Shown here in pieces: positions 28,608 through 32,470 of a stretch of 33,925 nucleotides of DNA. Numbering within the stretch: position 1 is the first letter of the stretch; each line of letters begins with the position of its first letter. Origin of the DNA: an uncultured Lachnospiraceae bacterium (GTDB taxonomy: Bacteria > Bacillota > Clostridia > Lachnospirales > Lachnospiraceae); contig CAJOFN010000009.1 of NCBI GenBank assembly GCA_905233905.1, forward strand, positions 1 through 33,925, in the 5' to 3' direction. The position numbers were made by a program, and so were the translations under genes. The notes beneath the pieces are model-generated. The model worked only from the letters and a program-made list of their open reading frames with translations, did no database searches and was not told where the DNA came from.

Positions 28608-29196
28608 TCAAAGCGCCTTTCATGTAGTCCGCTATGGAATCCACTACGTCCTCAAGCTCGCCTTCATTTTTGAAAATGATTGAAACTCCGGCAGCTTCAA
28701 GCTTATCTGATGAAAAGTCTTCCGAATCGGTAAGAAATCTCCGGCATACCTCATCATACCTGGGCGCTGCCTGTTTGCGTTCCCGGCGTATGGCTCTTTC
28801 AAGCCGTATAGAATCCTCTGTTTCTATATATATCGGAAGAACCAGCTCTTTGCTGTAGTAGTCGCGAAGCTTTATATACGCTTCTAAAGTGGCGATCATC
28901 AGATAGTCAGAAGAATTTATGTCTATCTGGCCGTCATCAGCGGTGAAATACGCCCACCTTCCGAGCCTTGTGTTATAAACCCTCTTTTCGATGACTTTTC
29001 CGGCTTCTGTAAGGCGCGCTTCCTCCTCCTCATCGCAGAAATGGTATTCCACACCGTCAACCTCCTTCTGGCGTATCGGTCTTGTGGTGTATAACACAAC
29101 GCGTTTAAGCCCAAGGTCACTCCTGTCTAAAAGCCGCTTGTATATGGCGTCTTTACCGCTGGCGCTTTTGCCCATCAATACAAATATCCTGCCCAT
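28588..29196 (-). CDS. Guanylate kinase-like NMP kinase (divergent P-loop)
   Basis: [38 protein letters not shown]; sits where tmk is usually found in this Firmicutes cluster. Confidence 0.8.
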
Positions 29197-30317
29197 TATC
29201 TTATCGCTCTGTCTATCTCATGCAGTGCCGCAGACAGCCTGTCAAAGCCTTCCTTTGTGTCCATGACAGAGGACAGCGCCAGGGCAAAGCCGTCTGAATA
29301 TTTCTCAAGCTCAAGCCGGTATTCTTCTCTCAAGCTTCGGGTCAGTTCTTTTCCGGAAAGACCGGTATTTACTGTCGATATTATGATTTTTGACCTGTCT
29401 TTATCGTCTCTGTCTACAATATAGATATGCTTAAGGTCTGAGACGCCGCTGTAAAATTCATCCAGACGCTTCCCATATTCGGCAAATAAAGCTCTTCCTT
29501 TCTCTGATATATTCCGGCAGCAGAGGGCTGCTGAACTCATCAGAAGGTATGAGGGCGAGCTCGTCTGGAGCATATTAAGGTAGTGCTTGACCCTCTCGCC
29601 TTTGATACGGCAATCCCCGGTATTTTTCAGGAGTATCAGCGAAAGCTGTCCCAGCACCGGCAGGGTCTTGTGGAGGGATACGACCGCGGCATCCGCGCCC
29701 TCTTCTATGGGATTTGCAAAGCACCTTGACATTTCCCTGCCGAAATGGGCACCGTGGGCACTGTCAGCTATAAGCGCCGCGCCGTTACTGTGGGCAATAG
29801 CTGACAGCGCTTTAATATCCGCAACAATACCTTCATAGGTGGGTGAAGTGACCACTACCGCAGAAGGCTTTGCGCCGTTTTGAAAAAGCCGCTCTAATTC
29901 CTCCGGGGAGGATGGCTCCAAAAAGCCTTCCTGAAGGCGCTTTGCCGGGATGGTATCTATGGACAGCCCGCGCAGCTTTCCGGCATTACTGACGCTTGGA
30001 TGGCAGCTGGCTGCCGCTAAGAGCCTGTCATGCCGCGAGGTCGCCGCGAATATCACCGAAAGATTGCTGCCGGTAGAGCCGTTCACGGACAGATATGCCT
30101 CATCTGCGCCATACACCCCGGCCCACATATCCTGGAGCTCCTTAAGAATACCCTTTGACTCCCTCAGATCATCAAAGCCCTCTATCTCTGTAATATCGTA
30201 TTGGAAGGGGTCCCAAATACCGGGATTAACGCGCTTCGCTCCGGGCATATGAAAGGGATAAATACCGCTGTTAACATAGTCTTCGATCCTTTGATCAAGC
30301 CATCTGTATGTAGTCAC
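29196..30317 (-). CDS. Orn/Lys/Arg decarboxylase family, YaaO-like PLP enzyme (short form)
   Basis: FHMPGAKR, VNGSTGSNL, LIADSAHGAHFG, VVSLHKTLPVLGQLSLIL PLP-lysine motif; 373 aa. Confidence 0.88.
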   Translation of the reverse strand: MTTYRWLDQRIEDYVNSGIYPFHMPGAKRVNPGIWDPFQYDITEIEGFDDLRESKGILKELQDMWAGVYGADEAYLSVNGSTGSNLSVIFAATSRHDRLLAAASCHPSVSNAGKLRGLSIDTIPAKRLQEGFLEPSSPEELERLFQNGAKPSAVVVTSPTYEGIVADIKALSAIAHSNGAALIADSAHGAHFGREMSRCFANPIEEGADAAVVSLHKTLPVLGQLSLILLKNTGDCRIKGERVKHYLNMLQTSSPSYLLMSSAALCCRNISEKGRALFAEYGKRLDEFYSGVSDLKHIYIVDRDDKDRSKIIISTVNTGLSGKELTRSLREEYRLELEKYSDGFALALSSVMDTKEGFDRLSAALHEIDRAIR

Positions 30318-30376: not shown

Positions 30377-31834
30377 CTACTGCAAAAACCTTCCTATTCC
30401 GGGCATCCAGTCGCCTGTAAAGGGCTGTCCCACTGCCATGGATATTGCTATGGGGACTACGAATACGGAGATCTTCTCCATGAGATCCAGCCATGAAAGA
30501 GATAGGCCGCTCCGGTGTCGCAGGAATTTTTCCCATTTCTGCTCCATAAAACGGTCTGTAGCCCAGCCACGGATCTTTTTCACCCTGGCCTCATCAGGAG
30601 TAAAATCCTCCTCCTCACAGATACCAAGAAGCTCCCTTGATACCGTCATCCCATCTATGGTCTGTGTACACAGGATCTCGTACAGCCGCAGGAACACGCT
30701 CATATCTTCAATAAGCTCCATCCTGCGGATCATATCGAACATGAGTGAGGTAACCTCCGATACGTCCTTTAAGGCTTCAGGCTCCTGCGTATTATGAGTA
30801 TCCTTCGCGATATGCTTCTCATCGGCTCCAATATGAGGCGCGGTTTCCACAGCCTGCCCACTGCCGGCACTTCTGCCGTCATCGACTTTATGCCTTGGTT
30901 CAGGCTTGCCATGGACCTCTGCTCCTCGTTCCGTCATTACCTCACCTTGAGGTGAAGCTTTTTGATCTGTTTCTGCCTCGGCTTGCGGCGCTGCTACTTG
31001 CTCTGCTGCCAGTTTGCCCTTTGATGGCGCTTCTTCCGGCGACATGATCCTGCCTTGAGACGATGTTCTTTCCATCGCTGCCGGATTGTCCTGGGAGGAA
31101 GATAGTTCTTCTGACATCAGATCACCCTGCGGCAACTCTTCCTGACTGCTGTCATCCGGCATTTCGTAGGAGAGGTCTGCCGCCCCGGAGTCTAAGGATA
31201 TCCATGTGCCGAGTATGGCCTCAACCTTGCTGCGCACCCTTCTTGCATTGGCGTATGTAAGGAGAAGCTCTATGTCCTTGGATTCATCCGAAAGATACGC
31301 CCTGACAGCCTGCCTGAACTCTTCCGGCGAAAGGCGCTCGCGGTATTTGAAAACATCGCATATCAGACGGTCAACCGTATATATAGCTATCCTGCCCCCG
31401 GGTATAAGCTCAATCTCCTCGACTCCAAGACCAAGCACCTTTTCCTCGGTGTAGTAAGGCTTGACCGGAGGCTTCTGAAGCTTTAGCCTCGCCTTGGATA
31501 TATTCTTGCTGATGGCTATCGTCCATGTGTCGGGACGTTCGTCAATATAGCCATGATAATACAGAGCCGTCTGCATCGTCAGGACGCCGTCCTTAAACTG
31601 GGAAAGTATGGCCTCTTCCACAGAGCCGTCCTGATCCGGCAGGGAGTAATAGCCGCTCTTGGGGCGCAGAAGCTCCCCCTGTTCAACAAGGCTCAATATT
31701 CTCTTGTAGGGTATGCCTGCCGCTGTAAGCTGGGAAGTCTTTACCATGCCGTGATTCCTTTGGATGAGGTCACGGACGCGTTCAAGAGCCGCTTCCCGCT
31801 CCAGCCGCTCGGCCCGGAGGTTTCTCTGTATCAT
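30377..31834 (-). CDS. AbiEi-like (type IV antitoxin / transcriptional regulator) protein with repeat linker and an AbiEii-tail-like C-terminus
   Basis: N-terminal DLIQRNHGMVKTSQLTAAGIPYKRILSLVEQGELLRPKSGYYSLPD and TMQTALYYHGYIDERPDTWTIAISKN are typical of AbiEi-type proteins; start taken at ATG 31834 (track uses TTG 31840). Confidence 0.75.
   Translation of the reverse strand: MIQRNLRAERLEREAALERVRDLIQRNHGMVKTSQLTAAGIPYKRILSLVEQGELLRPKSGYYSLPDQDGSVEEAILSQFKDGVLTMQTALYYHGYIDERPDTWTIAISKNISKARLKLQKPPVKPYYTEEKVLGLGVEEIELIPGGRIAIYTVDRLICDVFKYRERLSPEEFRQAVRAYLSDESKDIELLLTYANARRVRSKVEAILGTWISLDSGAADLSYEMPDDSSQEELPQGDLMSEELSSSQDNPAAMERTSSQGRIMSPEEAPSKGKLAAEQVAAPQAEAETDQKASPQGEVMTERGAEVHGKPEPRHKVDDGRSAGSGQAVETAPHIGADEKHIAKDTHNTQEPEALKDVSEVTSLMFDMIRRMELIEDMSVFLRLYEILCTQTIDGMTVSRELLGICEEEDFTPDEARVKKIRGWATDRFMEQKWEKFLRHRSGLSLSWLDLMEKISVFVVPIAISMAVGQPFTGDWMPGIGRFLQ
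30908..31160 (-). repeat. Degenerate 36-bp (12-aa) tandem repeat linker inside the AbiEi-like gene
   Basis: Repeat-end codons (G/D/A) at 30908, 30944, 30980, 31016, 31052, 31088 and 31124, exact 36-bp spacing; units DLMSEELSSSQD / NPAAMERTSSQG / RIMSPEEAPSKG / KLAAEQVAAPQA / EAETDQKASPQG / EVMTERGAEVHG. Confidence 0.8.
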
Positions 31835-31849
31835 AAACAATATTTTATT

Positions 31850-31897
31850 ATATTTTAAATACCCTGGTCAAGTATAGCTTGCAACCATTTAAAATAT
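31850..31897. promoter_or_regulatory. Perfect 11-bp inverted repeat, candidate operator of divergent regulators
   Basis: ATATTTTAAAT (31850-31860), 26-bp spacer, ATTTAAAATAT (31887-31897). Confidence 0.6.
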
Positions 31898-31907
31898 GTC
31901 CTATAAT
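31879..31907 (+). promoter_or_regulatory. Predicted promoter of the ArgR-like gene
   Basis: TTGCAA-N17-TATAAT; ggagatga RBS before ATG 31952. Confidence 0.6.
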
Positions 31908-31951
31908 CGTATAGAGACAACAAATCATGTCATATTTATGGAGATGATGCC

Positions 31952-32470
31952 ATGTCAGATTATACCAAACCCACCCGCGTCAGGGTCAACCCGTCACGCC
32001 ATACCTGCGAGGAGATAATCCGCCGCATACTTCTCACCGAGACGAAAGAAAACGGCTCCAACCGCCACTTCAAGACCGGAGCCGATTTTATGACATATTT
32101 TGAATCGCTTTACCCCTCCGGCCCGGCGCTGACCAAGCAGGTTCAGAGGGCTATCCGTTCCATGGGGCTTGCCAAGGATCAGAACGGGTATTTTCTGATC
32201 GACAAGACCAAAGAGGAACAGGCGACCGAGCAGGAGCTCAAATCCGTTCTCGAAAAGAGCGACGCCGATATAACAAATACCGGCACCACCTTACAGACCC
32301 TTCTGATCACATGCTCCGAGGCTCACCGAAGGTATCTTATGACGCTGATCCCAAGCTGCCATAGCTTAAGCCCGCTTTGCGTCACCATGACAGAGACCAA
32401 CAACGGCATCCTTATATTTACTCCGGACGCCGGCGCATTAAACGAGGCTCTTGCTGACATTATGGATTAA
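31952..32470 (+). CDS. Hypothetical protein, possibly a divergent ArgR-like regulator
   Basis: LTKQVQRAIRSMGLAKDQNGYFLI resembles an ArgR winged-helix region; C-terminal CVTMTETNNGILIFTPDAGALNEALADI weakly like the ArgR oligomerisation domain. Confidence 0.6.
   Translation: MSDYTKPTRVRVNPSRHTCEEIIRRILLTETKENGSNRHFKTGADFMTYFESLYPSGPALTKQVQRAIRSMGLAKDQNGYFLIDKTKEEQATEQELKSVLEKSDADITNTGTTLQTLLITCSEAHRRYLMTLIPSCHSLSPLCVTMTETNNGILIFTPDAGALNEALADIMD

Follow-up and report, generated by a model that had tools for sequence, protein, structure and literature searches.

The window (the whole 33,925-nt stretch of an uncultured Lachnospiraceae genome that was analysed) carries on its reverse strand a single open reading frame in which an AbiEi-type protein is joined, through a linker, to the C-terminal helical domain of an AbiEii/AbiGii-type toxin. 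An OKR-type decarboxylase-like gene, which synteny identifies as a conserved neighbour of the fusion, lies downstream, and a divergently oriented gene of unknown family lies on the other side, beyond an intergenic region with promoter-like sites and repeats (Table 1).

Table 1. Features of the fusion locus, in coordinates of the window.
Feature	Position	Strand	Basis or remark
AbiEi - linker - AbiEii C-domain fusion protein, 485 aa	30377..31834	-	ATG 31834, stop 30377
AbiEi half, residues 1-215	31190..31834	-	Pfam AbiEi_4; PADLOC AbiEi 2.6e-51; fold match 6y8q 1.4e-12
Winged helix of AbiEi half, residues 18-66	31637-31783	-	
Linker, residues 216-355, acidic, disordered, poorly conserved	30770..31189	-	pLDDT, dN
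AbiEii/AbiGii C-terminal helical domain with GDWMPxxxRFL tail, residues 356-485	30380..30769	-	PADLOC, alignment, pLDDT
OKR-type decarboxylase-like gene, downstream, 59 nt past the fusion	29196..30317	-	Pfam OKR_DC_1 1.1e-33; synteny
Divergent 172-aa gene, unknown family	31952..32470	+	only alongside syntenic AbiEi/AbiEii
Promoter-like site of fusion gene, TTGACC-18-TAAAAT	31842..31871	-	consensus scan 10/12
Promoter-like site of divergent gene, TTGCAA-17-TATAAT	31879..31907	+	consensus scan 10/12
Perfect 11-bp inverted repeat, candidate operator	31850..31897	.	ATATTTTAAAT (31850-31860) / ATTTAAAATAT (31887-31897)
Two GACA-type half-sites, ATGTCC (31896-31901) and AGACAA (31915-31920)	31896..31920	.	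motif enriched across syntenic clade

The initial annotation of this DNA had described the N-terminal ~210 aa as AbiEi-like, and the profile searches bear this out. Pfam AbiEi_4 matches residues 18-66 (5.2e-10; 39.7 bits, cut-off 25), which identifies the winged-helix DNA-binding domain of an AbiEi-family regulator, while the PADLOC AbiEi match extends over residues 18-212; the winged helix and the C-terminal domain of an AbiEi antitoxin are thus both present. The last ~100 aa had been likened to AbiEii; here the homology stands and the length does not, since the AbiEii-derived part comprises ~130 aa. Residues 359-484 align with positions 157-282 of the 283 positions of the PADLOC AbiEii model PDLC02311 (1.1e-33; 6e-35 when the C-terminus is searched by itself), a match covering the C-terminal part of the model only, in agreement with the absence of the nucleotidyltransferase (NTase) core noted earlier. 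Chance similarity between helical sequences was considered as an explanation and is ruled out by the PADLOC matches. The Pfam AbiEii family (PF08843) is silent on the C-terminus of the fusion; therefore, homology to canonical AbiEii is shown through relatives and fold. Unfused homologues at the same chromosomal place match PDLC02311 along their full length as well as other PADLOC AbiEii models, their full-length profile matches the AbiGII chain 9hlo_B (2.4e-12), and the best PDB match of their predicted fold is the AbiEii homologue TglT/MenT3 (1e-6), all of which supports placing the C-terminal helical domain in the AbiEii/AbiGii family. As had been observed, no AbiEii toxin ORF lies next to the fusion; moreover, the genome (93% complete) yielded no PF08843 match and no second copy of the fusion protein. 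The AF2 model of the fusion has pLDDT mostly >90 in both domains and <50 in most of the linker, and it is the AbiEi half of this model that gives the fold match to 6y8q.

Among 299 genomes of the family, the best match to the fusion is found in G168 (= L031), a member of the same genus with the same fusion (422 aa, in a 426-aa open frame), followed by separate AbiEi proteins. The linker measures ~140 aa in the window and ~65 aa in G168. The recurrence of the fusion in this independent genome rules out an assembly artefact, as does the existence of an unfused intermediate. Downstream of the separate AbiEi in relatives stands a protein of 270-310 aa, the C-terminal 130 aa of which correspond to the C-domain of the window. 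Such separate pairs of AbiEi and an AbiEii-like protein occur in ~30 Lachnospiraceae genomes, mostly at the same chromosomal place, and the order in most of them is DacF - divergent 172-aa gene - abiEi - abiEii - OKR decarboxylase - tmk - yaaR - holB - yaaT - MTase. We refer to these pairs as syntenic; canonical pairs in the same family lie at other chromosomal places. In the relatives abiEi precedes abiEii, the stop of the first in many cases overlapping the start of the second, and the two genes are separate, whereas the window and G168 have a single ORF. A C-domain profile splits the proteins into two sets, one with a GDWMP tail at E ~1e-24 or lower, the other lacking the tail at 2e-21 or higher; in 391 genomes of the class, no member of the GDWMP-tail set was found outside the family. 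Where G016 and G303 show an ORF with the C-domain alone, the cause is a contig end. Mobile spread was also considered and rejected: no plasmid match was found, and the top "phage" hit is a piece of bacterial DNA that carries DacF and OKR genes. This entry, L136 (MT837737.1, named "Bacteriophage sp."), encodes DacF, syntenic-type AbiEi and AbiEii and OKR decarboxylase in the order seen in bacteria and is probably a mis-binned Lachnospiraceae fragment.

Toxicity depends on residues in each one of motifs I, II, III and IV, as shown by Dy et al. 2014 (PMC3985639). These NTase motifs read hG[G/S] (I), DhD (II), K..R (III) and +DxxD (IV). Of 13 canonical members, 12 have motifs I, II and IV as well as the lysine of motif III, whereas the DxD of motif II occurs in 0/30 syntenic proteins. 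The exceptional row of the canonical set, L105 (G082), is motif-less, bears GDWMP and does not lie at the syntenic place; its AbiEi with a motif-less AbiEii is either sister to the domesticated clade or branches early from it, and may show the state prior to fixation. The syntenic toxin has thus lost the catalytic motifs, retained the NTase fold (mean pLDDT 93.7 in the AF2 model of an unfused protein) and gained a conserved C-terminal GDWMPxxxRFL tail, and, judged from its sequence, it is very probably dead. Relatives thus hold no intact abiEi-abiEii pair at this locus: the pair is there, but its toxin lacks the catalytic motifs in ~30 genomes. Because the toxins of these relatives are already motif-less, inactivation preceded deletion and fusion. 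In the window itself, motifs I and II are gone with the whole NTase domain and the residues of motifs III and IV are replaced, so that the motifs expected of AbiEii in an AbiE/AbiG type IV toxin-antitoxin (TA) system are missing. As a side observation, PDLC02311 scores motif-less members far better (up to 7e-93) than one canonical member (1e-29); hence, defence scans will label domesticated pairs as AbiE.

An intermediate stage is preserved in G302, from the genus of the window. Here the 234-aa AbiEi has a gene of its own, and a second ORF of 200 aa comes next, overlapping the abiEi stop as in many operonic relatives. This second ORF consists of a short leader and the C-domain; the NTase domain is gone while the genes are still unfused. 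In the AbiEi tree, the window, G168 and G302 form one clade (99/98) nested within the syntenic set, which together with L105 is separated from the canonical proteins (99/97). The C-domain tree has the same syntenic/canonical split (100/100), and in it G302 was not recovered beside the window and G168; the NTase domain was therefore deleted once or twice. Distances track those of the core genes nearby (Mantel r 0.21-0.53, p 0.0005-0.05); AbiEi and the C-domain correlate with each other at r 0.66, next to 0.67 for HolB-YaaT, which argues for mainly vertical inheritance as a unit. Between the window and G168, dN is 0.272 for AbiEi, 0.275 for the C-domain and 0.875 for the linker, against 0.07-0.41 for neighbouring genes; dS is saturated for this pair and no dN/dS ratio is claimed. 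For G049/G367, dN/dS is ~0.02-0.05 in AbiEi and ~0.08-0.2 in both halves of AbiEii. These values indicate that both domains are maintained, even the dead NTase domain where it is present, and decay is not the explanation, since drift is seen in the linker and conservation in both globular domains. The fusion is well supported as the end of a series leading from a pair through a dead-enzyme pair and NTase deletion to fusion.

The divergent 172-aa gene occurs in 27 of 397 family genomes, and all 27 are among the 32 with syntenic AbiEii (Fisher 4e-37, kinship ignored). Its product has no Pfam match above the cut-off and no convincing match in a PDB profile search; the idea of an ArgR-like repressor gained no support from either. 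From its promoter-like site, the transcript of the fusion gene would be leaderless. Inverted repeats in the promoter serve negative autoregulation in AbiE/AbiG systems. In the window, the 11-bp inverted repeat, a candidate operator, spans both promoter-like sites, and an equal or longer repeat arose in 8/1000 shuffles. Across the syntenic loci, GACA/TGTC half-sites upstream of abiEi number 69 against 17.2 +/- 3.9 in dinucleotide shuffles, whereas canonical abiEi genes have 3 against 4.4; the enrichment figure is descriptive because the motif was picked after inspection of the same sequences. At six places, half-sites pair up as (A/C)GACAW-N6-WTGTC palindromes, and the spacing of the half-sites tends to ~10, 20-21, 31-32 or 41-43 bp. 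Boxes that are partly AGACAA-N6-TTGTCT palindromes at roughly helical spacings are seen, for example, in L079, L081, L090, L094, L096, L103 and L131-L134. At the window locus the GACA sites are weak and the palindrome is absent; the window genome has one palindrome match only, on another contig. A wide GACA regulon was rejected, the palindrome being no commoner than a reversed control in five pooled relatives; without a genome-wide excess, the boxes more probably serve as a local operator than mark a regulon. Separately, an ACCAC...GGAG[CT]GG element of constant 27-nt length stands just before abiEi in nine unfused syntenic loci (L076, L078, L079, L081, L087, L089, L095, L097 and L099); it is not in the canonical loci checked and was seemingly lost in the genus of the window.

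We consider the fusion to be the end product of a domesticated AbiE/AbiG (AbiEi-AbiEii) operon that is reused as a local transcription regulator and is no longer a toxin (probability about 0.55). The relatives show that an abiEi-abiEii pair was fixed in a core chromosomal neighbourhood and that the toxin lost its catalytic motifs, kept its fold and gained the conserved C-terminal tail. In the genus of the window, the NTase domain was deleted while the genes were still separate, and the window and one relative have both genes merged via a disordered linker. The evolutionary part of the explanation is well supported, whereas the function is what we infer. The proposal of a domesticated TA fusion with the toxin cut to its C-terminal helical domain accordingly finds support in the domain matches and the series seen in relatives, while its reading as a new regulator is favoured by the winged helix, the divergent promoters, the GACA boxes and the linkage to the 172-aa gene. 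AbiEi would still bind DNA via its winged helix, and the helical domain of the toxin may serve as its permanently tethered partner in oligomerisation, co-repression or signal input. The fusion would act at the divergent promoter region (31841-31951) to regulate its own gene and the 172-aa gene, and possibly the decarboxylase operon further downstream. That AbiEi touches the C-domain is suggested by the PDB entry 9hlo, in which the closest solved relatives, AbiGI and AbiGII, are two chains, and by the gene fusion itself; against it counts that S. agalactiae AbiEi and AbiEii were assayed for interaction and classed as non-interacting (PMC3985639). A broader proposal, to which we give slightly less than even odds, is a three-gene regulatory system (172-aa protein, AbiEi and AbiEii) that is restricted to a subset of the Lachnospiraceae and derives from an abortive-infection TA pair, with the former toxin as a pseudo-enzyme subunit and, in the genus of the window, its helical domain alone tethered to the repressor.

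The roles within such a system could also be distributed differently, with the 172-aa protein as the regulator acting on the GACA boxes and AbiEi/AbiEii as its partner, sensor or effector and not the main DNA-binder there. In four genomes that have the 172-aa gene away from abiEi, the boxes remain with the former, and upstream of abiEi they are few or absent in L084, L091, L100 and L104, all without the 172-aa gene; since the boxes follow the 172-aa gene and not abiEi, its product may be their binder. Nevertheless, the Pfam and PDB profile searches revealed no recognisable DNA-binding domain in the 172-aa protein, whereas AbiEi has one, and we regard this arrangement as unlikely. The ancestry in phage-defence genes and the conservation of the C-domain would also suit a defence or growth-control module that works without nucleotidyl transfer, its helical domain binding, for example, tRNA under modulation by AbiEi. 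However, the core locus, the vertical inheritance, the missing plasmid match and the lost catalytic motifs make such a module improbable.

A protein composed of an antitoxin and a toxin part able in principle to bind antitoxin might instead act as an anti-toxin decoy, as the initial annotation had suggested, or as an immunity factor, directed in either case at AbiEii toxins that mobile elements carry. The distribution of AbiEii does not support this: it is missing from the genome of the window, canonical AbiEii occurs in 4/32 hosts against 49/365 other family members (no enrichment), and a PF08843 match is present in just 15/33 hosts, one being the syntenic gene. We thus hold a decoy to be very improbable. 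The successive loss of catalytic residues and of a domain, followed by fusion, could likewise be read as the decay of a functionless remnant, but this is barely credible given that the frames are open in ~30 genomes, domain dN resembles that of neighbouring core genes while the linker drifts, the predicted fold is confident, and the GDWMP tail is new yet near-invariant.

The domestication of TA systems has been proposed often and is seen step by step rarely; here, active pair, dead-enzyme pair, enzyme-domain deletion and gene fusion coexist in one bacterial family, and a tightly linked partner gene with candidate operators makes the new role directly testable. The findings also carry a warning, as defence-annotation tools call these core chromosomal genes AbiE though the toxin is very probably dead. 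No published description of such a domesticated AbiE pair or fusion was found in the open-access literature searched, subscription literature being mostly outside the search.

Compared with known systems, the parts belong to known families and their state is new: a derivative of AbiE/AbiG that is domesticated and non-catalytic and whose end form is a fusion. Because the catalytic motifs and the bicistronic organisation are both missing, the fusion should not be classed among the type IV TA systems. Its AbiEi half resembles AbiGi-AbiGii (profile match to 9hlo_A, 6.9e-34) and AbiEi (6y8q, 8e-34), and many relatives share the arrangement in which abiEi comes first and its stop overlaps the abiEii start. 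In contrast, the KGG...DID motifs kept in the AbiGII chain of 9hlo are lost in the syntenic family, which differs further by its GDWMP tail and core locus, while the window stands apart in being fused and devoid of the NTase domain. The DUF1814 nucleotidyltransferases MenT3/TglT (Rv1045) and JHP933, which are the best fold matches of the unfused syntenic AbiEii (1e-6 and 6e-5), are active enzymes, whereas the syntenic protein has no catalytic residues. A precedent for an AbiEi with regulatory importance for its host is the Mesorhizobium huakuii regulator, as described in an abstract (PMC8436566); that protein is part of an AbiE TA system, and the abstract mentions no fusion to a toxin remnant such as the one that sets the present protein apart.
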